A stretch of 19,512 bases of DNA from Bacillota bacterium (GTDB taxonomy: Bacteria; Bacillota_A; Clostridia; Clostridiales; Clostridiaceae): positions 1 to 19,512 of the forward strand of contig JAKBFR010000038.1 of NCBI GenBank assembly GCA_021837545.1. The letters are read 5' to 3'. Every line of letters begins with the position of its first letter. Position 1 is the first letter of the stretch. The notes below the pieces were generated by a model. The model did not search any database. It was given only the letters and a program-made list of their open reading frames with translations, and was not told where the DNA came from. Both the position numbers and the translations under genes were made by a program. Shown here piece after piece: positions 647-17,293 of this stretch.

Positions 647-678
647 ATAAACCCCTCCTAAATTTCTATTCAATAAAA

Positions 679-716: not shown

Positions 717-843
717 CCCTTAAATTTAATATATTTTTATTTCACTCATTTATAATTTTTTTATTATACTTAATCAGAATTTTGATTAGTTCATCTAAAT
801 TATATGCATGAAATATCCCCATTATATTTTTATAATATATATA

Positions 844-3167: not shown

Positions 3168-3175
3168 TTATTTGT
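3098..3175 (+). repeat. Two tandem 39-bp units with a hairpin and T-run
   Basis: Units at 3098-3136 and 3137-3175 are identical. Each starts GAAAAGTTCTTGG, then has GCGC-TTC-GCGC (a 4-bp stem) followed by seven T, then ATTTGT. A degenerate unit precedes them at about 3050-3097. On the plus strand each resembles a short intrinsic terminator, although no plus-strand gene lies upstream. The last unit overlaps the TAA stop (3168-3170) of the small minus-strand gene. Confidence 0.8.
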
Positions 3176-3497
3176 GTATATTTTTTAATATTTCTTCTAT
3201 TTTATTTATAAAAACGGATTCATTTTTTATTTTAAAATTATTATCTCCTAATCTTACTAATATGTCTTTCTCTGATTCTTTATAAATTTTCAGAAATGAA
3301 TTATCCTTTATAAAATTCGAAAAATCTTCTCCAAATTTTTCACTTACAAGTTCATAATTTTCATTTGTATTTCCAAGAGGTGATAATGCTTTAGTATTAA
3401 TTACATCTACTTTAATAATTCCAAGTAAAACAAAAAATAAAATCAAAAATGCTGGTAATACTTTTTTAAATATGTAACCCTTAAAAATATTCTTCAT
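3168..3497 (-). CDS. Small membrane-anchored protein of unknown function
   Basis: This 109-residue protein was not recognised. The N-terminus is basic (KNIFKGYIFKK), followed by one strongly hydrophobic segment at about residues 13-29. This is either a signal anchor or an uncleaved signal peptide. The remaining 75-80 residues are polar and lysine/glutamate rich, and would face outside the membrane if the usual positive-inside rule holds. There are no cysteines and no enzyme motifs. The ATG at 3497 has GGGTG about 8 nt upstream. The gene lies between lepA and spoIIP, isolated by repeat-rich DNA on both sides. Its stop codon falls within a tandem 39-bp repeat unit, so its C-terminus may have been shaped by the repeat. 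A role in sporulation is possible from position only. Confidence 0.6.
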   Translation of the reverse strand: MKNIFKGYIFKKVLPAFLILFFVLLGIIKVDVINTKALSPLGNTNENYELVSEKFGEDFSNFIKDNSFLKIYKESEKDILVRLGDNNFKIKNESVFINKIEEILKNIHK

Positions 3498-3717
3498 ATT
3501 AAAAACACCCTTTTCAAATAAGTTAATTCATGTTTAAACTATCTCTAATATTTTCTTTAACTTTTTATTTAGATTCTTTCCATATTTAGAAAGTATTATT
3601 CATTACTTTACTAATATTATGTTATTGTTGTATCTACCCAAATAATTTTTTAATCTAATACTATGTTAACCTGAATTTTATAATAGCTGAATAAATTTTT
3701 AGGATTTTTATATATGT

Positions 3718-3749
3718 AAAAGTTCTTGATTGTGCGGTCGCACTTTTTT
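3718..3749 (+). repeat. Single diverged copy of the hairpin/T-run unit
   Basis: It begins AAAAGTTCTTGATTG like the units at 3098-3175, then has GTGC-GGTC-GCAC (stem 3732-3735 with 3740-3743) and six T. The stem bases differ from the tandem units but remain complementary. That compensation suggests the hairpin itself is maintained. It is in the same orientation as the tandem copies. Confidence 0.55.
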
Positions 3750-4025
3750 CATATGTGCGTATTTTTTATATGTGTATATCTTCACCATATGAGAGTATGT
3801 ACTTTCTACTTAATAAAGTTATAGCATTCTATAATGATCAAAATCTTAAATATACAAAAAGAATTCATTGAAATTATCACATATCGTTGAATGAATATAT
3901 TAATTTTTATTATGTAACTCTATCATATATACCAAAGTTCCAAGTTACTCCTATAATTTTCATATATATATCTTAAACTAGAAATAAGGGGGCATGCTTT
4001 TGTGGAGTGTTGCATCAGAGGATTT

Positions 4026-4260
4026 AACTGTAGATATTTCTTCAGTAGAAGTTGTTCCACTTTGAAGTGAGAGTCCAAATCTTGTATTTGGATTCTCGAA
4101 CTTCCTCAGCGAACGCATGTGAGTCGAGTTTCCTTGCCTCAGGAGCATGCATAAATGGGTGCAACTTCTACTGATAGAAATCCACAGTGTATTTTCTTAG
4201 TAACCGAAACAACAGAGTACCATTTCTTTCGACGGATTATACCCAAAGTGCAATTTCCAC
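4026..4260 (+). repeat. Dispersed palindromic element, copy C (largest copy)
   Basis: Outer arms at 4026-4058 and 4157-4188 are imperfect inverted repeats. The best part, CAGTAGAAGTTG, is matched by CAACTTCTACTG. Between them is a second hairpin: GAGAGTCCAAAT (4069-4080), loop CTTGT, ATTTGGATTCTC (4086-4097), with one G-T pair. Its middle matches copy D in inverted orientation. Its 3' half (GTGCAACTT, then CTTAGTAACCG.AACAA and TACCA) matches copies A and B. It carries no reading frame. The length and nested palindromes resemble a MITE or REP-like element, but no target-site duplication was identified. Confidence 0.6.
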
Positions 4261-4269
4261 CTTCTGTAT

Positions 4270-5328
4270 CTATTTATTTAAAATTTCTGCAATTACTCTA
4301 GCCATACATTCTGCTGTAACTTTTGATTCTTCCGGAGTGTTAGTATTTGAACCTATTTCAAAAAGCAAACATCCATCACTTTTACTTTGATTAAATGCAT
4401 TTTTACCTCTATTATACGTGAATATTTTTGTGGGTAAAGTTGGAAATAACTCAGATGTTTTGTTAAATACCTTTTCTGTAAGTTCTTTATTCTTATCATA
4501 TCTTGTACTATTTTTAGCATTTACAAACATTATTTTCGATGCACTCATTCCATAAACTTCAGTTGTCGTTATAGCTTTATTTTCTATTGAATCTCTATGC
4601 AAATCTATAATCATTTTAAAATCTCCATATTGTTTTAAATATTTATCAACAGTTTCTCCAGATCTTGTATAACTATCATTATAAGAAATACAGTGATCAG
4701 TTTTATCATGTATTACTGAAATTCCATAATTCTCTTCGAGTTCATTAGCAAGAACATCTCCAACTCCAACTACATTTGTATTTTCATCTGAACTTTCTGG
4801 TTCTGTTGCATTATAATTTTCAGTAGTATGACTATGATAAATTAATATTTCTGGCTTTGACTTATTTATTTCCTTTTTTAAACTTGCATCATAAATTTGT
4901 GTATTTTTACTATCATTATTTGCAGGTAACTTAGAAATACTCTCTTCACTGACTTGGAATGGATTAAAGGTAAAAGTTGACTTAGTATTATTATCATCTA
5001 TATTATAAAAAAAACTAACTTCATTTTGTATTATTCCTCTATAACTAAAATTATTTAAACCTAATACTTCAAAGCAAACCGTCTTTAGTGAAAGCTTATT
5101 TTCAGCATAATTCCCCTCATCGTAAGTTTGAGATTCTATTATTGGCATTCCTAAATTTAATAATTCAACATAAGCAAAGGCTCCTCTTTCTCTATTATCT
5201 TTTAAAAAACTACCAAGTCTTATAAATAAGATACTTAAAATCAAAATAAGCACTACTATACCTATATTTATATTAGGTTTTACTTTAATTTTTTTTCGAA
5301 TGTTATTTGTTCTTTCTCTTCTGATCAT
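4270..5328 (-). CDS. spoIIP: Stage II sporulation protein P, engulfment peptidoglycan amidase/endopeptidase
   Basis: This 352-residue protein has a short basic cytoplasmic tail, one membrane helix at about residues 22-38, and an extracytoplasmic SpoIIP domain from about residue 150 to the end. Conserved blocks include IYHSHTTENY, a zinc-site type motif (His and Glu), then MIIDLHRDS and LLFEIGSNTNT. In Bacillus, SpoIIP cuts stem peptides from septal peptidoglycan and works with SpoIID and SpoIIM in the mother-cell membrane to drive engulfment. I chose the ATG at 5328 because AAGGTG (5335-5340) sits 6 nt upstream. The in-frame GTG at 5337 is inside that binding site. gpr lies directly upstream, a common clostridial and bacillar pairing. 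A hairpin lies between the two genes, so separate control (sigma-E for spoIIP, sigma-G for gpr in Bacillus) is plausible, but I could not identify such promoters. Confidence 0.93.
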   Translation of the reverse strand: MIRRERTNNIRKKIKVKPNINIGIVVLILILSILFIRLGSFLKDNRERGAFAYVELLNLGMPIIESQTYDEGNYAENKLSLKTVCFEVLGLNNFSYRGIIQNEVSFFYNIDDNNTKSTFTFNPFQVSEESISKLPANNDSKNTQIYDASLKKEINKSKPEILIYHSHTTENYNATEPESSDENTNVVGVGDVLANELEENYGISVIHDKTDHCISYNDSYTRSGETVDKYLKQYGDFKMIIDLHRDSIENKAITTTEVYGMSASKIMFVNAKNSTRYDKNKELTEKVFNKTSELFPTLPTKIFTYNRGKNAFNQSKSDGCLLFEIGSNTNTPEESKVTAECMARVIAEILNK

Positions 5329-5488
5329 ATATATCACCTTATTCCCCCTTGTACTATTTTATATTATGTCTATAACTGTTCTAGCCACTCCCACTCTTTA
5401 GATAGAAGTTAATACCGCACAGTCATATACGAGGTGCCCCTTATCGGTACTATATGTCCACTATTAGGATGATTTAACTAAAATCAGA

Positions 5489-5517
5489 TTCAAGTGGAAT
5501 ACAAAATTCCACCTGAA
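5489..5517 (-). terminator. Hairpin downstream of gpr, possible terminator
   Basis: A 12-bp stem (arms 5489-5500 and 5506-5517) with a 5-nt loop lies 57 nt past the gpr stop. In minus-strand RNA all twelve positions pair, with one G-U. In plus-strand RNA that pair would be an A-C mismatch, which favours function on the gpr transcript. The following T-run is weak (GATTTTAG), so it may instead be a processing or stability hairpin. Confidence 0.45.
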
Positions 5518-5573
5518 AAGTTTTACTTTATAATTATATTAATAAATTTACATAATTATTCTTCCAATCAAAA

Positions 5574-6557
5574 TCACCCCATAAATTTATTGATTTCTTC
5601 CATATTCATATTAGGTTGCACAGCCATATTTATTCCATTAGCTATTATTTTTGATAAGGAATTTATGACTAAATCAATATCTTTTGGTGTAACTATCATA
5701 TCTGTATTGTTTTTCGTTGATATTACTTCCTTAATAAGATTCTCTTTTTCATTTTTATCAAGAGATTTTAACATTTTATAAAAATCAGTTCCACTTGATG
5801 ATTGGCTTATTAGTGAGTCTACAACTAAATCTATAGTATCATTGGTAATTGTAATTGCATCTACAACTGTTGGTACTCCTATAGCAATAACCTTTACGCC
5901 TAAAGTTTCTTCATTTATTTGTTTTCTATTATTTCCAACTCCGGCACCTGGTGATATTCCTGTATCGCCAATTTGAATTGTTGTATTTACTCTTTGAACC
6001 CTTCTTGCGGCTAGTGCATCTATACATATTACTAGATCTGGTTTGATTTTTTCCACAACTCCCTTAATTATTTCCACTGTTTCAATACCTGTAACTCCTA
6101 ATACTCCTGGAGCTATTGAACAAACAGGTCTAACAGAGTCATCAATTGCTTCAGGCATTACTGTTTGCAAATGTCTTGTTACCATTATTTTTTCTGTTAC
6201 TTTTGGGCCTAAAGCGTCTGGAGTTACTTGCCAATTTCCAAGTCCCACAATTAATGCAGTTTTTTTAGTATCAATTTTTATTAATCTTCCTAAAATTTCT
6301 GATACCACCTCAGAAACTCTATCCATAGTTTCTCCATCATAAGCAGTAAAATCAGGAATATCTATAGTTACATAATTCCCTTTTGGTTTTCCAATTTTTT
6401 TGGCTCCTTCTTCATTTTTCACTTTCACTGTAGTTACTTTAATATTTTTTTCACTTTCTTCAATAACTTCAATTCCATCTATATCTCCTTCTGCCTTATG
6501 ATTTTCTTTATATATTTCCCTTGCTTCAAGTACTAGATCTGTTCTAACATTTATCAT
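5574..6557 (-). CDS. gpr: Germination protease GPR (SASP-degrading, family A25)
   Basis: This 327-residue protein matches the family length. GPR is made in the forespore as a zymogen and, during germination, cleaves the small acid-soluble proteins that coat spore DNA, releasing amino acids. The N-terminus contains VRTDLVLEA, which resembles the Bacillus autoprocessing site (cleavage after the Leu of RTDL). By analogy the propeptide here would be only about 8 residues. Two conserved aspartates proposed as catalytic in Bacillus (Asp127 and Asp193 of B. megaterium) correspond to D114 in VTPDALGP and D180 in VICIDALAARR, both offset by 13. The ATG at 6557 has GAGGTG 5 nt upstream. It is divergent from rpsT, with a 172-nt gap that also holds the rpsT promoter. 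I saw no convincing sigma-G promoter by eye. Confidence 0.96.
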   Translation of the reverse strand: MINVRTDLVLEAREIYKENHKAEGDIDGIEVIEESEKNIKVTTVKVKNEEGAKKIGKPKGNYVTIDIPDFTAYDGETMDRVSEVVSEILGRLIKIDTKKTALIVGLGNWQVTPDALGPKVTEKIMVTRHLQTVMPEAIDDSVRPVCSIAPGVLGVTGIETVEIIKGVVEKIKPDLVICIDALAARRVQRVNTTIQIGDTGISPGAGVGNNRKQINEETLGVKVIAIGVPTVVDAITITNDTIDLVVDSLISQSSSGTDFYKMLKSLDKNEKENLIKEVISTKNNTDMIVTPKDIDLVINSLSKIIANGINMAVQPNMNMEEINKFMG

Positions 6558-6617
6558 ATAAACACCTCATTATATATTTAGTCAGTTTTATTTTTCCTTT
6601 TTCTTTGAATTTAATAC

Positions 6618-6646
6618 TTGAATTACATAACTTGTGATGCTATAAT
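6618..6646 (+). promoter_or_regulatory. Sigma-A promoter of rpsT
   Basis: TTGAAT (6618-6623) and TATAAT (6641-6646) are separated by exactly 17 nt. Transcription would begin near 6653, giving a leader of about 77 nt before the rpsT ATG. Confidence 0.85.
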
Positions 6647-6652
6647 AAGGTT

Positions 6653-6729
6653 TGTTGAATATGAACTCGTACGCAGATTTCCCCAAAAGCTGCAGAGACC
6701 CTATAAAAATTTAAGGGGGTGAATTAAGA
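6653..6729 (+). promoter_or_regulatory. Structured leader of rpsT with pairing options for the ribosome binding site
   Basis: The binding site AGGGGGT (6714-6720) can pair with ACCCT (6698-6702), which would hide it. A second C-run, TTTCCCC (6678-6684), sits in the loop of a small GCAG...CTGC hairpin (6673-6676 with 6690-6693) and could pair with the same G-run. Autogenous control of S20 is known in gammaproteobacteria. Here it is an inference from pairing alone. Confidence 0.4.
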
Positions 6730-6993
6730 ATGGCAAATATAAAATCAGCTAAAAAGAGAATTAAAGTTACTCAAACTAAGACTTTAAATAACAGAATGGT
6801 TAAGTCTGCTTTAAAGACTGCTATAAAGAAATTTGAAGTTGCTGTAGAAGCTAAGAATAGTGAAGACGCTAAAACTTTATATACATCAGTTGTTAAGTCA
6901 TTAGACATGGCTGCTTCTAAGGGAGTTGTTCATAAGAACATGGCTGCTAGAAAGAAATCAAGATTAGCTACAAAGTTAAGCGCTATGGCATAA
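6730..6993 (+). CDS. rpsT: 30S ribosomal protein S20
   Basis: This 87-residue, lysine/arginine-rich, all-helical protein begins [12 protein letters not shown], the typical S20 start, and has the C-terminal [16 protein letters not shown] block. S20 binds 16S rRNA early in 30S assembly. It is the only plus-strand protein gene in the window. The start at 6730 is supported by AAGGGGGTGA, about 9 nt upstream. Promoter, leader and terminator are all visible, so it is a complete single-gene unit. The converging holA gene ends 76 nt past the rpsT stop, and the two share a terminator. Confidence 0.98.
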
Positions 6994-7000
6994 TCTTAAA

Positions 7001-7032
7001 AACCCATCTATCACTAGATGGGTTATTTTTTT
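7001..7032. terminator. Bidirectional intrinsic terminator of rpsT and holA
   Basis: A perfect 10-bp stem AACCCATCTA / TAGATGGGTT (7001-7010 and 7015-7024) has a 4-nt loop. On the plus strand it is followed by ATTTTTTT. On the minus strand the stem runs straight into TTTTTAAG. It therefore suits both converging genes. A second small hairpin (AAGTGC-GTT-GCACTT, 7047-7061) lies between it and the holA stop. Confidence 0.92.
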
Positions 7033-7069
7033 GCGCAAATTACGAGAAGTGCGTTGCACTTTCTTTAGT

Positions 7070-8104
7070 TTATTTTTTAACTGTAAGAGTATTTATAAGG
7101 AGAAATTCCATCTCCATATTTTTGTCTAGTCCTGTGGATTTTAATTTTGTTTCTGTTTTTACACAAAGTTTAATTAATTCCATTAATTGCTTTTGTGTAA
7201 ATCTATTTGTTTGCGTTATTAATTTTTCGCATACAAACTGTGGTAATCTATATTCTGATATAATATCCTCTAATCTTTTTCCATTAGTAATTTTAACTTT
7301 TATTTCATATAATCTTAAAAAGTGTTTTTCAATTGCACTTATTATAAGCATATGTTGATCTGATTTATATAAAATTTCTTTCATTATGTCTATGGCCTTA
7401 TCAATCTTCCTTGCAGCTATTAATTCTACTAAATCAAAAATATCATCTTCATGAGAATTTAAAATAAGTAGATTAATATCATCTTTCTTTATATCTCTAC
7501 CTTCACAATATGATATAAGCTTATCAGCTTCTCTTTTTATAATGTCAAAATTACTTTGTACCTTCTCACAAAAATACATTAATTCAACTTTTCCAATTTG
7601 CTTTCCTTTTTCTTTAAATATCTCCGAAACCTTTTTTAAATATTTATCTTTCTTTAACTTATCACAATATACTATGGGTAAAAACTTACTTATAACCGTT
7701 AATTTTTTATTTTTGTTAGGTCTATCTCTCTTATCATTTAATAAGTAATACATTATCAAAATAGTATCAGGCGGTAAGTTCTCCACATATTTCTTAATAT
7801 CATTATATATTTTTGTACCTGTCGAATCACTTTTATCCTGCAAAAAACTTGCTCTATAAATAATAACAACTTTTTTTTCACTCATAAAAGGCATTGTTTC
7901 ACAGGCATTCATAATATCATCAAAACTCGTATTCATACCATCTATTCTTATTAAATTAAGTTCTTTAAACTCTTCAGATACTTCTCTTTTAATAATTAGG
8001 CTTATCCCATCCTTAATAAGCTCTTCATCTAATCCACAAAATATATATCCATTCTTCACATTACCTTTTTCAATTTCTTGTTCATAAACTTCATAATTAA
8101 TCAA
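7070..8104 (-). CDS. holA: DNA polymerase III delta subunit (sliding-clamp loader)
   Basis: This 344-residue protein matches the family length. Delta is part of the clamp loader that opens the beta clamp and places it on DNA. The N-terminal AAA+-like domain starts NYEVYEQEIEKGNVKNGYIFCG, which is cited by its parts KNGY and FCG: clamp loader delta proteins characteristically begin with such a (K)NGYLF.G strand, lacking a working P-loop. The TMPFMSEKKVVII segment near residues 70-82 is typical, as is the C-terminal collar region with AIEKHFLRLYEIK. The start is a TTG at 8104 with AGAGG about 9 nt upstream. The family N-terminus aligns from here, and the first ATG would come too late. A dispersed element separates it from comEC, which precedes it as in many Firmicutes. 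Confidence 0.93.
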   Translation of the reverse strand: MINYEVYEQEIEKGNVKNGYIFCGLDEELIKDGISLIIKREVSEEFKELNLIRIDGMNTSFDDIMNACETMPFMSEKKVVIIYRASFLQDKSDSTGTKIYNDIKKYVENLPPDTILIMYYLLNDKRDRPNKNKKLTVISKFLPIVYCDKLKKDKYLKKVSEIFKEKGKQIGKVELMYFCEKVQSNFDIIKREADKLISYCEGRDIKKDDINLLILNSHEDDIFDLVELIAARKIDKAIDIMKEILYKSDQHMLIISAIEKHFLRLYEIKVKITNGKRLEDIISEYRLPQFVCEKLITQTNRFTQKQLMELIKLCVKTETKLKSTGLDKNMEMEFLLINTLTVKK

Positions 8105-8169
8105 TTTAATTTTCCTCTCATATAAAAAATAACTTTATATAAATACCCAAAATCGAAATTTTACATTTC

Positions 8170-8290
8170 ATTCTGCCAAATTTCTCTGTGAGCGCTTGCC
8201 TTTGAAGCTAGCATTTTTGGTACAACTTGTGACCTTAAAAACACTAATCAAAATCTTGAGTAACTGTAGCAAATGCGTGCCCTTATTTCG
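8170..8290 (+). repeat. Dispersed intergenic element, copy B
   Basis: It lies between comEC and holA and shares its core and downstream blocks with copy A at the left end of the window. The core GCTTGCCTTTGAAGCTAGCA is at 8194-8213. The 3' half (GTAACTGTAGCAAATGCGTGCCC) parallels AGTAACCGTAACAAACGCATACC in copy A, and similar blocks in copy C. The left arm of the palindrome seen in A and C is not evident here. It is non-coding. The comEC stop is about 34 nt past its right end. Confidence 0.6.
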
Positions 8291-8323
8291 GTAGGATATA
8301 TGCATAAATATGGGTATCTATGA

Positions 8324-10018
8324 TCAAATCTCTATTACTTTACCATTTATTACAAATACTTTATTCGTAAGTCCATCTTTAAAATTTATTATATCATATT
8401 CACTTGACTCCTTACCACTTACCATTTTCAATAAATATTTTTCTTTTGAAGTCTCTAAAATATAATTCTTCCCTTGTAATTTAATATTACAAATACCATC
8501 TATATTTATTAATTTTCCCTGTCTATATGATTTTGTTGATAGTGTAGCTTCTGAAAGCCTTTTTAAGTCAATTTGATTTTTATTGGCAATAAGCACTCTT
8601 TGATTTCTATAACTAATCAAAATGGCTCCTTCTGTATAATATTTTATATTAAGAATTGGACTATATATTTGAATTACTATTACTAAAATAGATATAAGTG
8701 GAAGGTAAATAAATTTTTTATATCCTTTCCTAACGAAATAAAAACTTAACATTAAAAATAAATAGAAAAACACTACATACTCATTTCCATAAAACATAGG
8801 TAACGAAATTTTATCAATGGTATTTAACATCCAATCAAATATTTTTATTATATGTAAATTTAAATAACACCCAAAATCGAATAATTTCGGAAAAATATAT
8901 GTAAGTGCTAATATATTTCCAGTAACAACTATAAGATCTACAAATGGAACTAAAAATAAATTACCAATAATGAAATTTGCAGAAAAATCTTTAAATATTA
9001 GAATTAAATATGGTATTGTAAAAATTTGTGCACTTAATGTTAAGCTTAATGGCTCTCTGAGCTTTGCATGCAATTTATATAGTATATTATTAAATTTCTT
9101 ATTAAACATTATTATTCCAAGTGTAGCTAAATAAGATAAATGAAAAGATATACTAAAAATACTATAGGGTTGGTAAATTATTAAAATTATAGCAGAAAGA
9201 CATAGTGCTGAAATTGAACTATTATTCCTTTTTAATATATGTCCCACTTCTACACATGAAAGCATTGCAAAAGCTCTTATACTCGAATAATTATACCCAG
9301 TAAATATGACGTAAATCATTGTAGCTAAAAGCCCAAACTTACCTCCTATAAAAATCCTTAAAAATCCATAAACTATAGCTACATGCAATCCTGAAACACT
9401 TATACTATGTATGACTCCAAAATTTTTCATATCCTCCTTATCTTCTTCATCTAAATAATCAGAATATCCAAAAGCAATTGATGCTATTAATCCCGCTTTT
9501 CTTCTGCCTAAGTTTTCTTCTAAATTAGTATATATTTTTCTTTTCAGATCATAAAGTTTAGTTATAAAATCGCCATTAACTTTAGTCATTGTTTTCGGTT
9601 CAATCTCCCCGACAACCCCATTAATTTTATCTTGTATATTTTGAACTTCTCCTGAAACTTTATATCTTTCTCCAACATATAAAGTTTTCTTATTAGTTTT
9701 TAATATAATATTTTTTCCTTGATAGTCTCCTATAATACTATAGTTATTCACTTTTACTATTCTTACTTCACCACTTATTTCATTTTCAATTCTATAATAT
9801 GAAAAATTCATAAGGATTCCAATAGTAAAAAATATAATCATAATACATGTAAAACTAACTCCACAGTAATAAAATAAACAAATAAAAAAGAAGGCCACAA
9901 TAAATATTGCAAGCCCCTTAAATCCTTGATTTATTCCATAATAAATACAACTAATAGCTAGTGTTAAAAAAATATATACTACTGGATTTGCTACTTCCTC
10001 TATTTTTTTAGAAAACAT
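8324..10018 (-). CDS. comEC: ComEC/Rec2-type DNA uptake channel lacking the metallo-beta-lactamase domain
   Basis: This 564-residue polytopic membrane protein belongs to the ComEC family, the channel that carries single-stranded DNA into the cytoplasm during transformation. The N-terminus has hydrophobic helices (about residues 12-75), then an OB-like soluble part (about 80-150), then the competence domain. Family motifs are clear: HSISVSGLHVAIVYGF near residues 204-220, SSIRAFAMLS, and SISFHLSYLATLGI. After the last helix only about 105 residues remain. They show no HxHxDH or other metallo-beta-lactamase signature, so the protein is shorter than the roughly 750-residue Bacillus form. Domain-short ComEC proteins do occur in clostridia. 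The ATG at 10018 has AGGTG 5 nt upstream. The stop of the ATPase-like gene lies 4 nt before it, so the two are probably translated in a coupled way. Competence has not been shown by anything here. Confidence 0.9.
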   Translation of the reverse strand: MFSKKIEEVANPVVYIFLTLAISCIYYGINQGFKGLAIFIVAFFFICLFYYCGVSFTCIMIIFFTIGILMNFSYYRIENEISGEVRIVKVNNYSIIGDYQGKNIILKTNKKTLYVGERYKVSGEVQNIQDKINGVVGEIEPKTMTKVNGDFITKLYDLKRKIYTNLEENLGRRKAGLIASIAFGYSDYLDEEDKEDMKNFGVIHSISVSGLHVAIVYGFLRIFIGGKFGLLATMIYVIFTGYNYSSIRAFAMLSCVEVGHILKRNNSSISALCLSAIILIIYQPYSIFSISFHLSYLATLGIIMFNKKFNNILYKLHAKLREPLSLTLSAQIFTIPYLILIFKDFSANFIIGNLFLVPFVDLIVVTGNILALTYIFPKLFDFGCYLNLHIIKIFDWMLNTIDKISLPMFYGNEYVVFFYLFLMLSFYFVRKGYKKFIYLPLISILVIVIQIYSPILNIKYYTEGAILISYRNQRVLIANKNQIDLKRLSEATLSTKSYRQGKLINIDGICNIKLQGKNYILETSKEKYLLKMVSGKESSEYDIINFKDGLTNKVFVINGKVIEI

Positions 10019-10022
10019 CAAC

Positions 10023-12542
10023 TCACCTCATTAATGAGTTTTGCCACTTTCTAGCTAAAATTTCAAAAATAATTAAAAATATTATTGAAACTGCTAATTC
10101 AATTATAATTATATCTTTAGGTAATATATTATTAATTAAAATAACACCAACTATTGCTATAATAATTATTAAAAATGATACTATTCCCATAACTAATTCA
10201 TTAGATAATCTCCTTATAGACACATTGCTATTAAACAATGTAAACAATAAAATTCCCATCGATAAAATAGTTAAGGGTATTAAAGTTGCTTCTTTACCAT
10301 CAACCTTATAAATTGAAATCATGGTGATTACACTTAATATTGAAGCTCTAGTTATCATTTCATTGTTACTAATATCTCGTCCGCGTTTCAACAAAATTAT
10401 TAAAGATATTGGAATAAATAAAAATCCATTTATCACTAAGATGTTCCACGAATCTAAGCTTTCAGTTTGTCCCATTATAAGGCAACCTAGCAAAACAAAA
10501 AGTTCTGAAAGAATAGTCATAAAGTACATTTTAAAACCTCTATCTATATTCTTACTAAATACTCTTGAAAAATCCCTTATTTTGAAAAATCCATCTAAAT
10601 AATTTTCTTGAATATAAACATCGCATAATCTTTTTACCATTACAGATGCCTTTCCTTTACCTATTCCAACATTAGATAAATTAAGGGCTGGTAAATCACC
10701 TAAATTTTCTCCTGTAGTCGCAACCCTATGTCCATCTTTTATGAACAATGAAACTATTTTTGATTTAATTTCAGGATTTACTCTACAAAACACTCTAACT
10801 CTGCAAAGTAAATCTCTAAGCTCTTGGTGATTTAATGAATCTAATTCTATTCCTGCTACTACTTGATTATCATTTTTTATTATATTTGCTTTTTTTGCAT
10901 TTGTTATAGCACTCAATTTGCTTTCTTCGGTAAATAATATAGGCACTATTGCTTTATCCTTGATACGTTCTATGCTGTTTTTAAGATTTTCTTCAAGAGG
11001 ATTTTCTAATCCAATTATCCCTACGAAAACCAAATTACTTTCTATGTTCTCACCTTTAGATGGCTCATAACTAAAGTTTCTATAAGCGAAACCTTCTGTT
11101 ATTAATCCCTCTATAGATAAATTCATATCTGTATCTTTTATTATAGCTTTATATTCATCTGTTAACTCTCTCTCAACACCTTCTATCATAATATATTTAC
11201 ATCTTTCTAAAACATCATCTACATTTCCTCTAGTATTTGCCCTATATCTTCTATCGAAATTACTTACAACAGTGAAAAATCTTTTATCTGAATCCATAGG
11301 TATTTCTAAAGTTCTTGAATTTTTACTATCTATAGAGGCCTTATAAATTTTCTTTTTAGCAGCATAACTTAAAAAAGCAAGTTCATCTAATTCGCCTTTC
11401 CCACTATCATTACTCGCGTTATAGATCGCATTATTACATATTAATGATATCTCCACTATTCTATCAAAAGTTATTTCTTTTGAATATGAATCACTTGTAG
11501 ATATTACGCTATTATTGATAAATATCTTTTTTACAATCATTTCTTTTTTACTTATGGCGCCAACCTTATCTAAAAATAAAATATTAACGTCTTTAATTAA
11601 ATTAAATACCGAGAAATTTATTATTTCAATATTTTGATTTAAAAAACTTTTAACTACACTATTAAAAATCAGCTTTGCAATTATAGCAATTGGAAAGCAA
11701 CCTAATGCAAATAATGCTGTGCATATATATTTTTTTTGTATATCTTCTCCTGTATACACAAAATATGAACCTATAACTAAGATACTTACAAAATATATTA
11801 ATAAATATTTTTCTAAAAGCTTTGATACCATTGTTCCAAAGTTATGTTTCCTATTACTTGCATAAGTAAGCATTGCAAGGACTCTTCCTAGTTGTGTAAA
11901 GTTTCCAGTAGCAATAACTATTCCTAAACCATCACCAGATTTTATTACAGAACCTTTAAATAATATGTTTTTCATATCTGAAAGTGAATAAATATTACCT
12001 ATTATTTTACTTTCGAATTTTTCTTTATAAAAAGTTTCTCCTGTTATACTCTTTTCATCTACCTTTATATCCTTAGCACTTATTATTCTTAAATCTGCTG
12101 GAATAACCGAATCCCTATTAAACCTAACTATGTCTCCCATTACCAGCTCTTCAGACTTGATTTTTTTTTGCGTTCCATCTCTAATAACTACTATATCTTC
12201 AGAATTTAACCTTTCTAAAACTCCAATTTCTTTATCTCTTTTTGTAGTATGCATTATTAGTATTATTAAATTTGATATTAATATTAATGCTGCTATTCCA
12301 CCAAATAAATAGAACCTAAATATAAATAATATTATTGTAATTATTATATATATAATTATACCTTTTTGTTTTAACGCATTAAATATATGCTTATAAAGCC
12401 CATTTCCACTTGGTAAATCAATTTTATTTGTACCATGTTTTAATCTTATTGCTTCACAATCATTTTCACTAACTCCAGCTTGAACATTACTATTTAATAG
12501 TTCAACTATCTGAGCCCATGAATTAATACAGTATTTTTCCAA
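10023..12542 (-). CDS. Degenerate P-type ATPase-like membrane protein
   Basis: This 839-residue protein has the full P2-type (Ca2+/cation pump) architecture. An N-terminal cation-ATPase domain is followed by helices near 61-98, actuator domain 105-225, helices near 245-300, P and N domains 315-650, and six C-terminal helices near 668-830. Key motifs depart from the family. DKTGT reads DKVGA at 325-329 (the phospho-Asp is kept). The PEGLP of helix M4 reads CFPIA at 282-286. TGDGVND reads TGENLGD at 610-616, losing the first Asp. The NxxTD of M6 reads NGFLF at 705-709. TGE of the actuator is intact (167-169). Pumping is thus doubtful and the ion-binding residues seem lost. A catalytically altered pump, or a regulatory pseudo-pump, are both possible. 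The start is a TTG at 12542 preceded by GGTGGGG. It is coupled to comEC. Confidence 0.85.
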   Translation of the reverse strand: MEKYCINSWAQIVELLNSNVQAGVSENDCEAIRLKHGTNKIDLPSGNGLYKHIFNALKQKGIIIYIIITIILFIFRFYLFGGIAALILISNLIILIMHTTKRDKEIGVLERLNSEDIVVIRDGTQKKIKSEELVMGDIVRFNRDSVIPADLRIISAKDIKVDEKSITGETFYKEKFESKIIGNIYSLSDMKNILFKGSVIKSGDGLGIVIATGNFTQLGRVLAMLTYASNRKHNFGTMVSKLLEKYLLIYFVSILVIGSYFVYTGEDIQKKYICTALFALGCFPIAIIAKLIFNSVVKSFLNQNIEIINFSVFNLIKDVNILFLDKVGAISKKEMIVKKIFINNSVISTSDSYSKEITFDRIVEISLICNNAIYNASNDSGKGELDELAFLSYAAKKKIYKASIDSKNSRTLEIPMDSDKRFFTVVSNFDRRYRANTRGNVDDVLERCKYIMIEGVERELTDEYKAIIKDTDMNLSIEGLITEGFAYRNFSYEPSKGENIESNLVFVGIIGLENPLEENLKNSIERIKDKAIVPILFTEESKLSAITNAKKANIIKNDNQVVAGIELDSLNHQELRDLLCRVRVFCRVNPEIKSKIVSLFIKDGHRVATTGENLGDLPALNLSNVGIGKGKASVMVKRLCDVYIQENYLDGFFKIRDFSRVFSKNIDRGFKMYFMTILSELFVLLGCLIMGQTESLDSWNILVINGFLFIPISLIILLKRGRDISNNEMITRASILSVITMISIYKVDGKEATLIPLTILSMGILLFTLFNSNVSIRRLSNELVMGIVSFLIIIIAIVGVILINNILPKDIIIIELAVSIIFLIIFEILARKWQNSLMR

Positions 12543-12632
12543 AAGAACCCCACCATTCTAAATCACTTCATTATTAACCTTATTAAACCATTATACTATA
12601 ATTTATCATTTTATATAGTTATATTTATTTAC

Positions 12633-12646
12633 AGTATAATTATACT
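12633..12646. promoter_or_regulatory. Perfect 14-bp palindrome upstream of the ATPase-like gene
   Basis: AGTATAATTATACT is exactly self-complementary and lies about 90 nt upstream of the TTG start at 12542. A candidate -10 box (TATAAT on the minus strand, 12590-12595) lies between them without a clear -35. A further inverted repeat, TTTTTATGTA (12686-12695) with TACATAAAAA (12708-12717), sits about 70 nt past the spoVAE stop and lacks a T-run. Either could be an operator, but in DNA this AT-rich chance palindromes are common. Confidence 0.3.
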
Positions 12647-12785
12647 TGTTAATACATTGAAAGGCAAAATTTAAATATAGTCTTATTTTTATGTATTTTA
12701 GTTAAAGTACATAAAAAAAATATTGCATTATCCTTGTATATTTTGTCTGTTACTTTATTTCATGTGCCTCAGAATATGTATATTA

Positions 12786-13142
12786 TTATTTTTTTGTTTT
12801 AGGGTTAAAAATAAGTGCCATTAAATATCCAAAGAATATTGATGCTGTAATTCCAGCTGCTGCTCCTTTAATACCTCCTGTAAATGCCCCTAATAATCCA
12901 ATTTCTTTAACTTCTTTTATTGCAGCCTTAGCCAAAGCATTTCCAAAACTCGGCAATGGAACAGTTGCTCCAGCTCCACCAATGTCAACTAATTTATCAT
13001 ACCATCCAAAAGATCCTACTATTGCTCCAAGTACAACAAATACAACTAATATTCTTCCTGGTGTTAATTTTGTGACATCTATTAATATTTGACCTATAAC
13101 ACAAATAATGCCTCCAACTATAAATGCACTTACATAATCCAT
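12786..13142 (-). CDS. spoVAE: Stage V sporulation protein AE, DPA channel membrane subunit
   Basis: This 118-residue protein is almost entirely hydrophobic, with about four membrane segments. The FIVGGIICVIGQILID start is the family signature shared with SpoVAC, and the central GGAGATVPLPSFGNALA block is typical of SpoVAE and SpoVAC. It acts in the spore inner membrane, where SpoVA proteins move Ca2+-dipicolinic acid into the developing spore and out again at germination. The ATG at 13142 has AAGGAAG-type purines about 6 nt upstream. It is the last of three spoVA genes. Clostridia commonly have only spoVAC, spoVAD and spoVAE, in contrast to the longer Bacillus operon. Here it lies 321 nt after spoVAD, with a heptamer array in between, so its own promoter is possible. 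Confidence 0.93.
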   Translation of the reverse strand: MDYVSAFIVGGIICVIGQILIDVTKLTPGRILVVFVVLGAIVGSFGWYDKLVDIGGAGATVPLPSFGNALAKAAIKEVKEIGLLGAFTGGIKGAAAGITASIFFGYLMALIFNPKTKK

Positions 13143-13463
13143 CTACTCTTCCTTCCCTTCTACAAATATTTCTTAATAAAAATAGTAATTATCAATTATC
13201 AATTATCAATTATCAATTATCAATTATCAATTATCAATTATCAATTATCAATTATGGGAATTTTAAATGGTAACCGATTAATTGCCAAATTTTTATGTAT
13301 GCTCCATTTTATAATTTGATGTGTAAATAGTTCTAATTTATACCTATCTATTGTATATTGAAAAGCTAATTTCACCTTTTTATGATCTAATTCACAATCT
13401 ACAATTCACAAATAAATTGTCTGAAACCATCCAAATTAATTGAAAATTGAACATTGATAATTT
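13143..13463. other. Gap between spoVAD and spoVAE
   Basis: These 321 nt hold no supported gene. Nearest spoVAE lies the heptamer array at 13187-13255. The rest (13260-13463) is AT-rich and includes scattered CAATTCACAA / ACAATCTACA type words similar to the array unit. I see no strong terminator after spoVAD and no clear promoter. The spacing is unusual for genes whose products act together. Confidence 0.5.
13187..13255. repeat. Tandem heptamer array (CAATTAT)
   Basis: There are nine exact CAATTAT units from 13193 to 13255, preceded by one partial unit (AATTAT, 13187-13192). The array begins 45 nt upstream of the spoVAE ATG. Such pure short repeats tend to change length by replication slippage. 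With a 7-bp unit, each step would shift the spacing of upstream signals. Confidence 0.95.
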
Positions 13464-14483
13464 CTATTTCATCTCTATAGCAACTGCATGAGCTATTCCT
13501 GGAATTGTTTCACCTTGAAGTGAAGATGTTGTACTCATAAGTGCACCTGTCGAAACTAATAATAATTTCTTTATTTCTTTTTTCATAAGCTTCTTATATA
13601 AATATCCTGTAAATACAACTGCTGAGCATCCGCATCCACTGCCCCCAGCTTCAGTTTTTTGTTTTTCCTTATCAAATATAATCTCACCACAATCAATATG
13701 TTGTTTCCTAATATCATAACCAAATTCTTGTATTAATTTATCGGCAAGTTCTCTTCCTATTATCCCTAAATCTCCTGTTGCTATAATATCATAATCACTT
13801 GGTTTTCTTCCTGTATCTTTAAAATGATTCACTATTGTATCAACAGCTGCTGGTGCCATAGCAGCTCCCATGTTATTGGCATCCTTCTGTCCAAAATCTT
13901 TTACTTTCCCAGTCGTTACATAAGTTACTTCCGGATAATTTCCTTCATATCCAAGAATTAATGCGCCCGATCCTGTTACTGTCCATTGCGCTGTTTGGGC
14001 TCTTTGAGAGCCATAGTCAAGCGGAAATCTGAATTGCCTTTCTGCTGAGCTAAAATGAGAGGAAGTTGTTGCAATTACATACTTAGCAAAGCCACCATCC
14101 ATTATAATTGCTGCTAAACTTAAAGATTCTGACATGGTAGAACACGCTCCATATAATCCAAAGAATGGAATACTAAATTCCCTTGCTGCAAAACTTGATG
14201 AAATTATTTGATTTAGTAAATCTCCAGAAAATAAGTAATCTATATCTGTTTCTTTAAGTTTTGCTTTCTTTAATGTTTCAGTTATAGCCGTAAACATCAT
14301 TTCACTTTCTGCTTTTTCATAACTATCCTTTCCCAATGTATCATCATTTAAGACTTCATCAAAATATCCACTTAAAGGACCTTCGCCTTCCTTTGGTCCT
14401 ACTATAGAATGTGCTGCTATTATTTTAGGTGGATTATCAAATTTCACTGTTTGCCTACCCATTTTTTTACTATGCATTTGCAT
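13464..14483 (-). CDS. spoVAD: Stage V sporulation protein AD, dipicolinic-acid-binding SpoVA subunit
   Basis: This 339-residue protein has a thiolase fold, as its family does. It begins GRQTVKFDNPP with a following IVGPKEGEGPL block, has the thiolase-like Cys in GLYGACSTMSESL (about residue 114), and a glycine-rich GGSGCGCSAVV stretch near residue 280. SpoVAD is a soluble protein of the SpoVA complex. Bacillus SpoVAD has been shown to bind DPA directly, and the ability matters for DPA uptake. I chose the ATG at 14483, since the GGAG of a ribosome binding site lies 9 nt upstream. The frame extends to a TTG at 14492, but that abuts the binding site. spoVAC lies upstream and spoVAE downstream. 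The whole protein looks intact. Confidence 0.95.
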   Translation of the reverse strand: MQMHSKKMGRQTVKFDNPPKIIAAHSIVGPKEGEGPLSGYFDEVLNDDTLGKDSYEKAESEMMFTAITETLKKAKLKETDIDYLFSGDLLNQIISSSFAAREFSIPFFGLYGACSTMSESLSLAAIIMDGGFAKYVIATTSSHFSSAERQFRFPLDYGSQRAQTAQWTVTGSGALILGYEGNYPEVTYVTTGKVKDFGQKDANNMGAAMAPAAVDTIVNHFKDTGRKPSDYDIIATGDLGIIGRELADKLIQEFGYDIRKQHIDCGEIIFDKEKQKTEAGGSGCGCSAVVFTGYLYKKLMKKEIKKLLLVSTGALMSTTSSLQGETIPGIAHAVAIEMK

Positions 14484-14686
14484 AATTAACAACTCCCTCT
14501 ACACTTTTTAATATAAAATCAATTTCTGCTTGTGAAATACCAATTACTAATTACCAATTGTCAATGTTCAATTGTTTCTTCTAAAACTAATCATTAATCA
14601 TCTAATTGACAATCGAGCACTAATTCGTACTCCTTCACTATTTAGCATTTTTTAATATTTAAATTATGTTATTTCCCATTGAATCG

Positions 14687-15154
14687 TTAAAATAACATAA
14701 TTACATAATAAACTATTCCTATAATTACAGATGATCCAATTCCATACACTAAAACGGGGCCTGCAATTGTAAACATTTTTGCTGCAACTCCAAATATAAA
14801 TCCTTCTTTTTTAAATTCTATTGCAGGTGAAACTACAGCATTCGAAAATCCTGTTATAGGAACAACGGTACCTGCTCCACCAAACTGAGCTAGTTTACCA
14901 TATATCCCTGTTCCTGTTAATAGTGCCCCTAAAAATATCATTACAATTGGAACAATACTCATAACTTGCTCTTTAGGAAATCCATAGTTAGTTGCTATAT
15001 TATTAATAAATTGACCTATATCACAAATTAACCCTCCAACTAAAAAAGCCTTCAAACAATCTTGAAATATTTTAGATTTTGGTATAACTTCGTTTGCCAT
15101 AACCTCATATTTTTGTTTAATTTCTGCTTCTTTTATTTCCCTATTGCTGCTCAA
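14687..15154 (-). CDS. spoVAC: Stage V sporulation protein AC, DPA channel membrane subunit
   Basis: This 155-residue protein has a charged N-terminal tail of about 33 residues (lysine and glutamate rich), then four to five membrane helices. The helix start FLVGGLICDIGQFI and the GGAGTVVPITGFSNAV block are typical of SpoVAC. Bacillus SpoVAC has been reported to act as a mechanosensitive channel and is part of DPA movement through the inner spore membrane. The TTG at 15154 is preceded by AAGGAG, 11 nt upstream. No in-frame ATG lies near it. It is the first gene of the spoVA group and is separated from the sigF terminator by about 200 nt of repeat-like DNA. In Bacillus this operon is sigma-G dependent. 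I could not confirm such a promoter here. Confidence 0.93.
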   Translation of the reverse strand: MSSNREIKEAEIKQKYEVMANEVIPKSKIFQDCLKAFLVGGLICDIGQFINNIATNYGFPKEQVMSIVPIVMIFLGALLTGTGIYGKLAQFGGAGTVVPITGFSNAVVSPAIEFKKEGFIFGVAAKMFTIAGPVLVYGIGSSVIIGIVYYVIMLF

Positions 15155-15184
15155 AGTAATTCACGCTCCTTTTTATCCGATAGC

Positions 15185-15300
15185 TAGCATCCGTAATACT
15201 CCCTGATATATAAAACGCCTCTTCCTAACGTCAGATGAGTACTCACAGAGCACGCGACCATCATCAAATTATAGATTTGAGATGTCTAGTATATCTATCA
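15185..15300 (-). repeat. Possible fifth member of the dispersed palindromic element family
   Basis: It lies between sigF and spoVAC. The minus-strand order is CATCTCAAAT, loop, ATTTGATGATG (a hairpin at 15259-15269 and 15275-15284, with one bulged base), then GCGTGC, TGTGAGT, CTTA, GGAAGAGGC. Copies C and D show the same layout of an AAAT/ATTTG hairpin, a GCG element, a GTGAGT or GCGAGT block, and a TTCC/GCCTC end. Identity is low, so membership is uncertain. Confidence 0.35.
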
Positions 15301-15359
15301 TTTGCAAAATTATGAAAATTAATCATGTTATTTTTTGGTAAGGTAACTTTCACACGCGA

Positions 15360-15415
15360 AAAAATAGAATATATATTTGTACAATAAAATTTCAACAAAT
15401 ATACATTCTATTTTT
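15360..15415 (-). terminator. Terminator of the spoIIA operon
   Basis: The inverted arms (15360-15380 and 15395-15415) are 21 nt long with a 14-nt loop, 8 nt past the sigF stop. The one non-Watson-Crick pair becomes a G-U in minus-strand RNA. The stem ends in a run of T on the minus strand. This fits an intrinsic terminator closing spoIIAA-spoIIAB-sigF. Confidence 0.85.
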
Positions 15416-15423
15416 ACTATCTT

Positions 15424-16179
15424 TTATTCTTCTAGTTTCTTTCTCATTTCAGCTAAAACTTTCTTCTCAATTCTAGATACCTGAACTTGGTTTATTCCAA
15501 GCATCTTAGCCACCTGAACTTGCGTCTTATCTTTAAAATAACGTAACAATATTATTTGTCTTGCCTTGTTGTCTAAACTACTTAAAGCTTCCTTAAGAGC
15601 TATTCTTTCAATAATATTTCCATCATCTACACTTTTTTCACTTAATTTATCTATTAAAAGAACTGGTGCTCCATCATCTTGATGTATTGTATCATATAAA
15701 TACTGTAAACTATTTGAAGATTCTATTGCAAATAAAATTTCTTCCTTGTCAACATCTGCATAATCAGCAAGTTCTTCTATAGTAGGTGACCTCTTAAGCT
15801 TTTTAGTTAAAATTTCTTTATAGAAATATACCTTTCTAGCTAAACTTTTAACATTACGGCTTACTTTTATCATTCCATCATCTCTTAAAAACCTTTTAAT
15901 TTCGCCTATTATCATGGGAACTGCATAAGTTGAAAACTTAACATTATAAGTTAAATCAAAATTATTTATAGCTTTAACTAATCCAATTGATCCTATTTGA
16001 AATATATCTTCATAATCATATCCTCTATTTAAAAACTTTTTACTTAGAGACGATACTAATGGTAAATTCATTTCTATTAATGTATTCATAGCATCACTAT
16101 CACCGTTTCTAGCTGAAGCTATTAGTTCTGGATTCTTGTCATAATTATAATCCTCTCGTTTTAAATCCTCTTTTTCCAT
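15424..16179 (-). CDS. sigF: RNA polymerase sporulation sigma factor F
   Basis: This 251-residue protein is a sigma-70 family factor of the SigF/SigG/SigB group. It is the first forespore-specific sigma factor. Region 2 spans about residues 35-100 (with DIFQIGSIGLVKAINNFD, FSTYAVPMIIGEIKRFLRDDG), region 3 about 105-175, and region 4 ends with a helix-turn-helix (VQVAKMLGINQVQVSRIEKKVL). The last is cited by position, about residues 222-243. The ATG at 16179 has AGGTGA about 5 nt upstream. An in-frame GTG at 16188 lies in that binding site. The spoIIAB stop overlaps the same site, so translation is likely coupled. Activity would be controlled by SpoIIAB binding until SpoIIAA displaces it. Confidence 0.97.
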   Translation of the reverse strand: MEKEDLKREDYNYDKNPELIASARNGDSDAMNTLIEMNLPLVSSLSKKFLNRGYDYEDIFQIGSIGLVKAINNFDLTYNVKFSTYAVPMIIGEIKRFLRDDGMIKVSRNVKSLARKVYFYKEILTKKLKRSPTIEELADYADVDKEEILFAIESSNSLQYLYDTIHQDDGAPVLLIDKLSEKSVDDGNIIERIALKEALSSLDNKARQIILLRYFKDKTQVQVAKMLGINQVQVSRIEKKVLAEMRKKLEE

Positions 16180-16188
16180 ATATTTCAC

Positions 16189-16620
16189 CTAACTTACCAC
16201 GTTGAATTTCTTCTTGATTACCACCTTTGTACCAATCCCCTTTTCGCTTTCTACCTTTAAATCATCCATAAATGTTTCCATTACAGTAAATCCCATACCT
16301 GATCTTTCTATATCTGGCCTTGATGTATATAACGGTTCCATAGCCTGCTCTATATCATCAATTCCAATACCCTTATCAATGATAACTATTGTAACTTCAT
16401 TTTCATTAATTTCTGCTTCAATTCTAACTAATCCATCTCCTTTATTCTCATATCCATGTATTATAGAATTTGTAACTGCTTCAGATACAGCTGTTTTTAC
16501 ATCATTTATTTCATCAATTGTTGGATCCAATTGAGCAACAAAAGCCGCAACTGCAACTCTTGCAAACCCTTCATTCTGAGATTTGCTTACAAATTCTACG
16601 CTCATTTTATTGTCAGACAT
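16189..16620 (-). CDS. spoIIAB: Anti-sigma F factor and SpoIIAA kinase
   Basis: This 143-residue protein has a GHKL (Bergerat-fold) ATP-binding domain. The N-box is in [14 protein letters not shown] (Glu and Asn), G1 is DKGIGI, and G2 is RSGMGF. In Bacillus it binds and inhibits SigF, or phosphorylates SpoIIAA on serine. The Bacillus protein has 146 residues. I chose the ATG at 16620 because GGAGGGG sits 5 nt upstream and the protein then begins [10 protein letters not shown], as family members do. The longer frame to an ATG at 16644 would overlap spoIIAA. It is the middle gene of the spoIIA operon: a 14-nt gap from spoIIAA, and a stop codon 9 nt before sigF. Confidence 0.97.
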
Positions 16621-16634
16621 GATAACCCCTCCAT

Positions 16635-16976
16635 CTAAATGCACCTTACTGCTTCATCTACAGTATTATAATTTTTAATTACCTTATATAAACCCGCTAG
16701 TTCAAAGATTCTATTAACATTTTTATTAGGTTCTGTAATGCAAAGCGCTCCTCCCTTATTAGATAACTTCTTATACCTACCTAACACTGCTCCAATTCCT
16801 GAACTATCCATAAAAGTTACTCCTGAAAAATCTAAAATTACCTTTTCTATGTTATCCCTATCAATTCTATCATCAATCTTTACTCTAACCTCCTCGGCGC
16901 TATTATGATCTAGTTCTCCACTAAGAGTTGTAATTAGAATATTTCCCTGTTTTTCAAATTTTAAATACATACCCAT
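16635..16976 (-). CDS. spoIIAA: Anti-sigma F factor antagonist (STAS domain)
   Basis: This 113-residue protein is a single STAS domain. The DSSG motif falls at residues 57-60, so Ser58, the Bacillus phosphorylation site, is at the same number here. This agreement supports the start at 16976. [10 protein letters not shown] (20-29) is also typical. Unphosphorylated SpoIIAA binds SpoIIAB and frees SigF. SpoIIAB phosphorylates it, and the phosphatase SpoIIE (not in this window) removes the phosphate. The ribosome binding site is weak: only GAGAT, about 7 nt before ATG 16976. A second ATG lies two codons later. It is first in the operon, behind a likely sigma-H promoter. Confidence 0.96.
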
Positions 16977-17084
16977 TAAGAATATCTCGAATTAAAATTT
17001 AAATTATAAATTTATGTTCAAATTATTATAAAGTTACAATTCCAACATATATATTAATTTAAACTCAAATACTTTAGTTGTGAG

Positions 17085-17115
17085 ATATTCCACTTTCACC
17101 TCCTTCTTTACCTTT
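17085..17115 (-). promoter_or_regulatory. Probable sigma-H promoter of the spoIIA operon
   Basis: On the minus strand AAAGGTAAA (17107-17115) resembles the sigma-H -35 box RNAGGAWWW with one mismatch. GTGGAATAT (17085-17093) fits the -10 box RNNGAATWW exactly. The spacing is 13 nt between the two nine-base elements, about one base longer than usual. A TGACGCT at 17156-17162 is a weak match to a Spo0A box and lies about 40 nt further upstream. In Bacillus spoIIA needs sigma-H and Spo0A. Confidence 0.55.
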
Positions 17116-17229
17116 CTTTGATCTATTTACCATATTTTAACATAGTATTCCATTCAGCGTCAAACTATTTATTACAGTTTTTTCTATTTTTTAATAATTT
17201 AATCATTAACTCATAGAAAATTTAAACTA

Positions 17230-17278
17230 AAAATAAAAGGCACTCTTTTGTATATAACATCAGAGTGTCCTTTATTTT
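17230..17278 (-). terminator. Terminator of the Lon-like protease gene
   Basis: Arms at 17230-17246 and 17262-17278 pair over 17 positions with two imperfections (one becomes G-U in minus-strand RNA). The minus strand ends with TTTTATTTTTAG. It lies 15 nt past the stop at 17294. Confidence 0.82.
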
Positions 17279-17293
17279 GGTAGTATATATACA

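Follow-up and report, generated by a model that had tools for sequence, protein, structure and literature searches.

What can a P-type ATPase still do once several of its signature motifs have been altered? This question is raised by a gene in contig JAKBFR010000038.1 of a Clostridiaceae genome (Bacillota bacterium, assembly GCA_021837545.1), of which positions 1 to 19,512, a stretch of 19,512 nucleotides referred to here as the window, were analysed. The gene encodes a diverged P2A-like P-type ATPase and is followed by comEC. On balance we favour the explanation that the protein belongs to a pseudo-pump family of the Clostridiaceae in which the P2A fold is intact and the transport cycle is lost, that it is nucleotide-responsive and that ComEC is its likeliest partner. 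The existence of such a pseudo-pump family under selection is probable, which is concluded from the facts that its members form one related group, that they are positioned at comEC, that DKTGT is absent, that the phosphorylatable aspartate has been lost repeatedly, that most ion-binding signatures are gone and that purifying selection is found. A function as nucleotide-responsive regulator or membrane scaffold is less secure, with chances somewhat short of even, and ComEC as a physical partner is a tentative and rather doubtful suggestion.

The ATPase of the window

The gene and the motifs on which the argument depends are as follows, residue numbers referring to the translation.

10023..12542, minus strand: gene of the diverged P2A-like P-type ATPase (putative pseudo-pump), 839 amino acids from a TTG start codon, full-length homologues known
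12548..12554, minus strand: likely ribosome-binding site of the ATPase gene, GGTGGGG, read from the sequence
12036..12044, minus strand: dephosphorylation motif TGE, residues 167-169, intact (translation and alignment)
11682..11699, minus strand: stretch CFPIAI of the fourth membrane segment (M4), residues 282-287, at the canonical place of PEGL (translation and alignment)
11550..11570, minus strand: phosphorylation motif DKVGAIS, residues 325-331, canonically DKTGTLT (translation and alignment)
10920..10931, minus strand: haloacid dehalogenase (HAD) motif II, TEES, residues 538-541, canonically TGDH (alignment)
10695..10715, minus strand: HAD motif IV, TGENLGD, residues 610-616, canonically TGDGVND (alignment)
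10410..10430, minus strand: stretch NGFLFIP of the sixth membrane segment (M6), residues 705-711, without the T and D of canonical NLVTD (translation and alignment)

The open reading frame (ORF) is neither a product of chance nor a sequencing error, because the 7994 candidates scored in the protein search include 208 matches, of which one is the window protein itself; among the 120 of the 208 matches listed, the entries that bear an organism name are all from Clostridium, with 40–96% identity. An earlier interpretation made from the letters alone, called here the sequence-only reading, had described an 839-codon open frame with altered motifs, and translation confirmed this. All substitutions that it listed stand, as does the intact TGE; the loss of catalysis was overstated, since the phosphorylatable aspartate D325 and the following lysine K326 survive in this copy. 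Its Mg2+ site has the acids E612 and D616. The threonines at the second and fourth position after the aspartate, the asparagine of GDGVND, the M4 glutamate and the M6 threonine and aspartate are lost. Judged from these residues, the window copy has lost the accessory chemistry and the ion ligands and kept the nucleophile.

The architecture of actuator (A), nucleotide-binding (N) and phosphorylation (P) domains with about ten membrane helices is that of the P-type ATPase superfamily. Pfam identified E1-E2_ATPase (1.8e-29), Cation_ATPase and Cation_ATPase_N, and the hydrolase (P-domain) model had no match at E up to 0.001. The best NCBIfam models stay far under their cut-off, with 252 of 798 bits for the PMR1-type and 167 of 611 bits for the Mg-type model. 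Among sequences in the PDB the best match is LMCA1 (lmo0841), a calcium pump of Listeria (E 2e-65, about 20% identity), and by modelled fold the P2A pumps LMCA1 and SPCA1/SERCA appear among the best matches. An initial AlphaFold2 model from 16 sequences was set aside for its poor cytosolic part (predicted local distance difference test, pLDDT, 64).

A family without DKTGT

A scan of the genome collection gave 102 relatives, from which 79 distinct loci were kept. These span Clostridium, uncultured Clostridiaceae, Haloimpatiens, Inconstantimicrobium and records titled Caproiciproducens, Clostridiales and Bacillota. Within the genus of the window, a family match was found in 43 of 59 genomes at 33–96% identity (98 relatives scanned; one broken and one short copy included), and the canonical pumps score under these matches, with at most 29% identity. 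The public names that call several family proteins calcium or magnesium transporters are probably wrong. For the motif counts, 122 gene-bearing loci were taken, the too-short L042 and L043 were left out and identical proteins were merged, resulting in an alignment of 91 rows including the window.

DKTGT occurs in none of the 91 rows, the closest motif being DKTGSIS in C. intestinale (L074). Close homologues with intact DKTGT and PEGL had been named in the sequence-only reading as a sign of merely local decay; no homologue with DKTGT was found in the group, and PEG in M4, where columns are poorly aligned family-wide and counts are rough, is present in one row (L087; CFPI in the window) and in one extra deep copy (L205). 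The aspartate of DKTGT is the residue that becomes phosphorylated, as a passage in PMC10654040 on the signature motif of the superfamily states. Its column holds D in 57 rows, E in 16, K in 11, N in 4 and P in 3, and the lysine that follows is conserved in all 91. Motif I is uncertain in L218, L238 and L242, and counts that involve these copies are rough. On a quick tree, computed without the motif columns and with support from the Shimodaira-Hasegawa-like approximate likelihood ratio test only, the label D or non-D changes at least 13 times, and supported branches force all 13 changes.

The remaining positions are given in the numbering of SERCA (D351, T353, F487, K515, R560, T625, K684, D703, N706, D707, E771), which was mapped by motif, not by an alignment with SERCA. 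At the place of T353, 79 rows carry V, I or L, and N706 of the hinge motif GDGVND (GENLGD in the window) is retained in 2. Of the TGE motif, T is kept in 90 rows, G in 88 and E or D in 85; Asp-less rows still mostly hold TGE, K352, G516, K684 and an acid at 707. A selected pseudo-pump, or a pump with a changed mechanism, had been proposed for the window copy in the sequence-only reading. That a conserved and selected family has lost a catalytic residue, as is characteristic of pseudoenzymes, is seen at the level of the family, where the aspartate is gone in 34 of 91 rows, and not in the window copy with its Asp and Lys.

A second set of 20 genera, picked from family-level search matches and independent of the pattern scan, gave the same picture: none of the 20 has DKTGT, and comEC comes next on the same strand in all of them. 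The aspartate is replaced in five, by E in L199, L209, L213 and L216 and by P in L200. Eleven of these sequences equal rows already in the alignment and nine are new.

Selection and conservation

Ratios of nonsynonymous to synonymous substitutions (dN/dS; NG86) ranged from 0.07 to 0.33 in 29 hand-picked pairs, which share sequences and of which 10 have dS >1, and pairs that kept the aspartate are not separated from those that lost it. These values indicate purifying selection and agree with the sequence-only reading, which had looked for a ratio well under 1. In ten locus pairs, dN/dS of the ATPase gene is like that of comEC and above that of gpr (10/10) and lepA (7/7 measurable). Homologues from 96% to as little as about 26% identity still have long open ATPase frames.

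Conservation was compared with a canonical set, a comparison that is indicative, the set consisting of 8 sequences of differing divergence and the domain borders having been set by eye. The membrane part scores 0.33–0.37 in the family versus 0.61–0.78 in the canonical set, the P domain 0.52–0.53 versus 0.80–0.82, the A domain 0.59 versus 0.73 and the N domain 0.59 versus 0.61. Taken as indicative, this pattern would match a transport path freed of constraint, with nucleotide-binding and actuator parts still constrained.

The pairing with comEC and the ancestry of the family

8324..10018, minus strand: comEC, 564 amino acids from ATG, Competence domain only (reading frame and Pfam)
10023..10029, minus strand: likely ribosome-binding site of comEC, GAGGTGA, overlapping the stop codon of the ATPase gene, read from the sequence

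The gap between the two genes, given as 4 nt before, has this length with the ATG at 10018 and is 1 nt with a TTG at 10021. In 75 of the 79 named loci comEC lies within 530 nt downstream on the same strand; in the other four the contig ends too early (L077, L097, L115) or holA is found instead (L085). For 87 loci, made up of those 75 and 12 more whose genomes are partly the same, the gap has a median of 23 nt and does not exceed 30 nt in 46. Retention of the pairing in homologues, which the sequence-only reading had named as support for a pseudo-pump, is thus seen at these 75 loci, in the 20 further genera and also in ten distant copies described below.

The window ComEC matches the Competence domain PF03772 (E 3.2e-49). 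Lactamase_B, the metallo-beta-lactamase domain that ComEC of B. subtilis has, was not found at E up to 0.1 in this protein and four others from Clostridiaceae; all 3 ComEC proteins tested outside the family, from two further families of the order, contain it. Where comEC adjoins an eroded ATPase gene, its 74 complete proteins have 433–624 amino acids. Loss of competence was considered as reason for the ComEC change and rejected, since TIGR00426, presumably a ComEA-type model and the sole competence model checked, matches in 58 of 59 genus genomes. The loss of the nuclease domain as a new finding was likewise rejected, as it is already in print for Clostridiaceae, as seen in part of PMC6299819.

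The comEC regions of 15 genomes were also inspected in a second family of the order, referred to here as the sister family. In 9 of them a full-length ATPase with DKTGTLT, GDGVND, PEGL and NLVTD lies upstream of comEC; pieces of an ATPase were seen in 2 regions, none in 3, and one is cut by the contig end. Pump and comEC are usually separated there by two small genes (one ORF called in 2 of the 9; loci L138-L146), which in the one region tested, L138, encode an energy-coupling factor (ECF) riboflavin-type S component and a 99-amino-acid protein without Pfam match. The sister-family ComEC has 691–714 amino acids (14 proteins), with Lactamase_B in 2/2 tested. The new point is that the pump adjoining comEC is eroded in the lineage where ComEC lost its nuclease domain.

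A branch with support 100 sets the eroded family apart in the tree, and the branch that leads to the canonical set is long (1.14 changes per column). Descent of the family from the comEC-linked pump of the sister family was examined on a reduced set of 48 of 82 rows with a simpler model. There the approximately unbiased (AU) test gave p-AU 0.522 for a clade with the sister-family pump, a value that speaks neither for nor against this descent, and a grouping with the canonical pump of the genus received support 73. A separate deep branch of genus P-type ATPases was also seen, with L187 and L188 (994–1003 amino acids, DKTGT present, PEG not found).

Two observations concern comEC itself. In L209 the comEC frame, adjoining an Asp-less ATPase copy, has only 384 amino acids. 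L171, in a genus genome with 7% contamination (G058), is a second full-length comEC of 817 amino acids, accompanied by a further holA, rpsT and gpr and possibly on a foreign contig.

Weighing the explanations

In the favoured explanation nucleotide binding would be retained, as suggested by G516, invariant in 91/91 rows, by K or R at 515 in 80/91 and by the conserved N domain. The A domain may still drive a change of shape, and the phosphorylation-driven ion cycle would no longer run at a useful rate, so that the protein could serve in the membrane as a scaffold or regulator that responds to nucleotide. The nuclease-less ComEC would be the likeliest partner, probably being encoded on the same message, with coupled translation in the window's clade, as the 4-nt gap suggests.

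A number of observations weigh against this explanation, some of them in the catalytic residues and others in the distribution of the gene. The window's clade retains the aspartate and might therefore still run the cycle slowly or in altered form, and the DKTGSIS of L074 fits a looser consensus, DKTG[TS], that is given in a part of PMC6592433. The aspartate, acids at 703 and 707, T625, K or R at 684 and TG[ED] are all present together in 41 of 91 rows. With regard to nucleotide binding, a direct sign of it was not seen: the place of F487 is F in 14 rows (M in the window) and that of R560 is R in 2.

The main rival, a P-type ATPase that is still active but runs a changed cycle on another substrate (e.g. 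a lipid, an amine or a neutral solute), draws on these same 41 rows with all catalytic carboxylates and on the 57 with the aspartate. According to this alternative, Asp325 would be phosphorylated in the window's clade, the missing ion carboxylates would be a consequence of the new substrate and the Asp-less members would be secondary. The acid at position 707 in 91/91 rows, the E or Q retained in M5 in 78/91 and the strong purifying selection would suit it as well. We nevertheless regard it as unlikely, if worth serious attention: the places of T353 and N706 are changed nearly throughout, the membrane segments are the least conserved parts, which is a poor fit to a conserved substrate site, and the aspartate was lost several times with dN/dS visibly unchanged.

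A more far-reaching version of the partnership appears improbable to us. Here the P-type ATPase fold might have become the gate of a reduced ComEC channel or its allosteric subunit, controlling a nuclease-less Competence-domain pore through the binding of nucleotide and the movement of the A domain, with no phosphorylated intermediate required. The joint loss of pump chemistry and ComEC nuclease domain would in this version have given rise to a two-gene membrane machine.

The distribution of the gene further counts against the favoured pseudo-pump explanation. By bit score the gene is present in 134 of 206 family genomes, a number counted by hand with a line at 440 bits that was drawn after viewing the list; the damaged copies of G016 (broken) and G040 (short) are counted in it, as are some for which stops were reported. 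In 16 of the 59 genus genomes no family match scores above the canonical pumps, and with the two damaged copies 18 of 59 are without an intact gene; the broken copy L043 (G016) and the short copy L042 (G040) suggest that the gene can be lost. Among the 16, 11 comEC upstream regions were readable and showed no ATPase; spoVAE directly precedes comEC in 6 of these and other ORFs in 5. In G035 (L085), the only clear split of the pair, the eroded ATPase gene directly adjoins holA, whereas comEC, with a frame of 522 amino acids, was located on a different contig. Outside the genus, 46 family genomes lie under the 440-bit line after exclusion of five matchless genomes, and comEC was located in 45. 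Ten of these have a more eroded ATPase upstream of comEC, with open frames of 768–915 codons and none with DKTG; in the other 35, the stretch retrieved upstream of comEC contains no ATPase. A canonical DKTGT pump adjoining comEC was sought in the same 45 genomes, and 0 were found.

An obligate ComEC complex is unlikely because comEC persists without the ATPase gene, the gene is damaged in G016 and G040 and the pair is split in G035. The ATPase gene is closely tied to comEC, yet comEC is independent of the ATPase gene.

The same absences could reflect slow decay, i.e. a redundant pump that is being lost and is retained as head of the comEC message, with selection acting on translation coupling and on harmlessness in the membrane. 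The 16 genus genomes without match and the 2 with broken or short copies, the 35 of 45 further family genomes and the long branches within the family agree with this. Frames that remain open down to about 26% identity and in ten distant copies, the low dN/dS and the conserved soluble domains are difficult to reconcile with it. In many deep members the spacing to comEC is loose (up to 530 nt), therefore coupling alone does not account for retention. Slow decay as the whole explanation seems to us quite improbable.

The promoter and the question of sporulation

12639..12667, minus strand: sigma-A-type promoter of the ATPase gene, TTGCCT-17-TATAAT, 125 nt upstream of the start, predicted from sequence conservation

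Upstream of the ATPase gene the window contains spoVAC, spoVAD and spoVAE, and downstream comEC, holA, rpsT (opposite strand), gpr, spoIIP and lepA. The sequence-only reading had seen a hint of a membrane role in the short gap to comEC within this sporulation cluster, and had suggested a check of expression during sporulation. The promoter was found in 17 of 89 upstream regions, all from the window's clade, versus 0.1 expected from mononucleotide shuffling, and it is conserved there between poorly conserved flanks. The ATPase gene is thus predicted to have its own vegetative sigma-A-type promoter. Shared transcription with spoVA therefore need not be assumed, which weakens the inference of a sporulation role. 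In addition, the upstream neighbours vary: they are spoVA genes in the window's branch, but no spoVA genes were seen upstream in 30 named loci, among the loci listed, for which more than 9 kb was read. A role in sporulation is not supported by these results, and the sporulation link is weak. A spore-specific membrane protein partnering SpoVA, to which spoVAC-AD-AE directly upstream in the window and many other loci would point, is very improbable given this predicted promoter and the 30 loci without spoVA, where comEC is still next as far as the contig allows. A C. beijerinckii transcriptome paper mentions P-type ATPases only generally in the portion seen (PMC6837493).

Between spoVAE and spoVAD, at 13187-13255, lie about ten head-to-tail 7-bp units AATTATC, which on the minus strand form a ladder of promoter-like TTGATA/GATAAT matches.

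Comparison with known systems

With the P2A Ca2+-ATPases LMCA1 and SPCA1/SERCA the window protein shares the full architecture of A, N, P and membrane parts, TGE and about 20% identity; it differs in lacking DKTGT, PEGL, GDGVND and NxxTD, and a third of its family lacks the aspartate. KdpFABC, in which the P-type ATPase KdpB is paired with the channel-like KdpA (a section of PMC9651954), is in our own comparison a similar arrangement. KdpB is, however, catalytically competent and its partner is KdpA, whereas the pairing here is one of genes, and the neighbour encodes a Competence-domain protein. Degenerate P-type domains are already known elsewhere: in the P4-ATPase-like domain of Plasmodium GC-beta the fold is present and the signature residues are mostly lost, as described in a part of PMC6592433. 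That eukaryotic P4-like domain is fused to a cyclase, whereas the present protein is bacterial, P2A-like and free-standing. The FUPA families are, like the present one, uncharacterised bacterial P-type ATPases; FUPA 24, the only one compared, differs in having about twice the normal length and functional motifs (a section of PMC3573892). In the literature searched, outside of which lie most subscription journals, no paper was found that treats this ATPase together with comEC, nor one that describes a free-standing pseudo-P-type ATPase from a bacterium.

A family that repeatedly loses the aspartate under selection offers a natural series, from the motif-complete pump of the sister family via Asp-kept to Asp-less members, in which one can ask which functions are left to a P-type ATPase once the cycle is gone. 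Its position beside a reduced ComEC also makes the function of ComEC in Clostridiaceae directly testable.

Other features of the window

At 3085-3176 a perfect 39-bp unit is repeated 2.4 times and reaches into the end of a 109-amino-acid ORF (3168-3497) without NCBIfam match. At 17294-19405 a Lon-like protease of 703 amino acids is encoded, which scores far under the cut-off of the LonB-type model (129 of 517 bits); its gene lies upstream of spoIIA-type genes, a place that is retained in many relatives.
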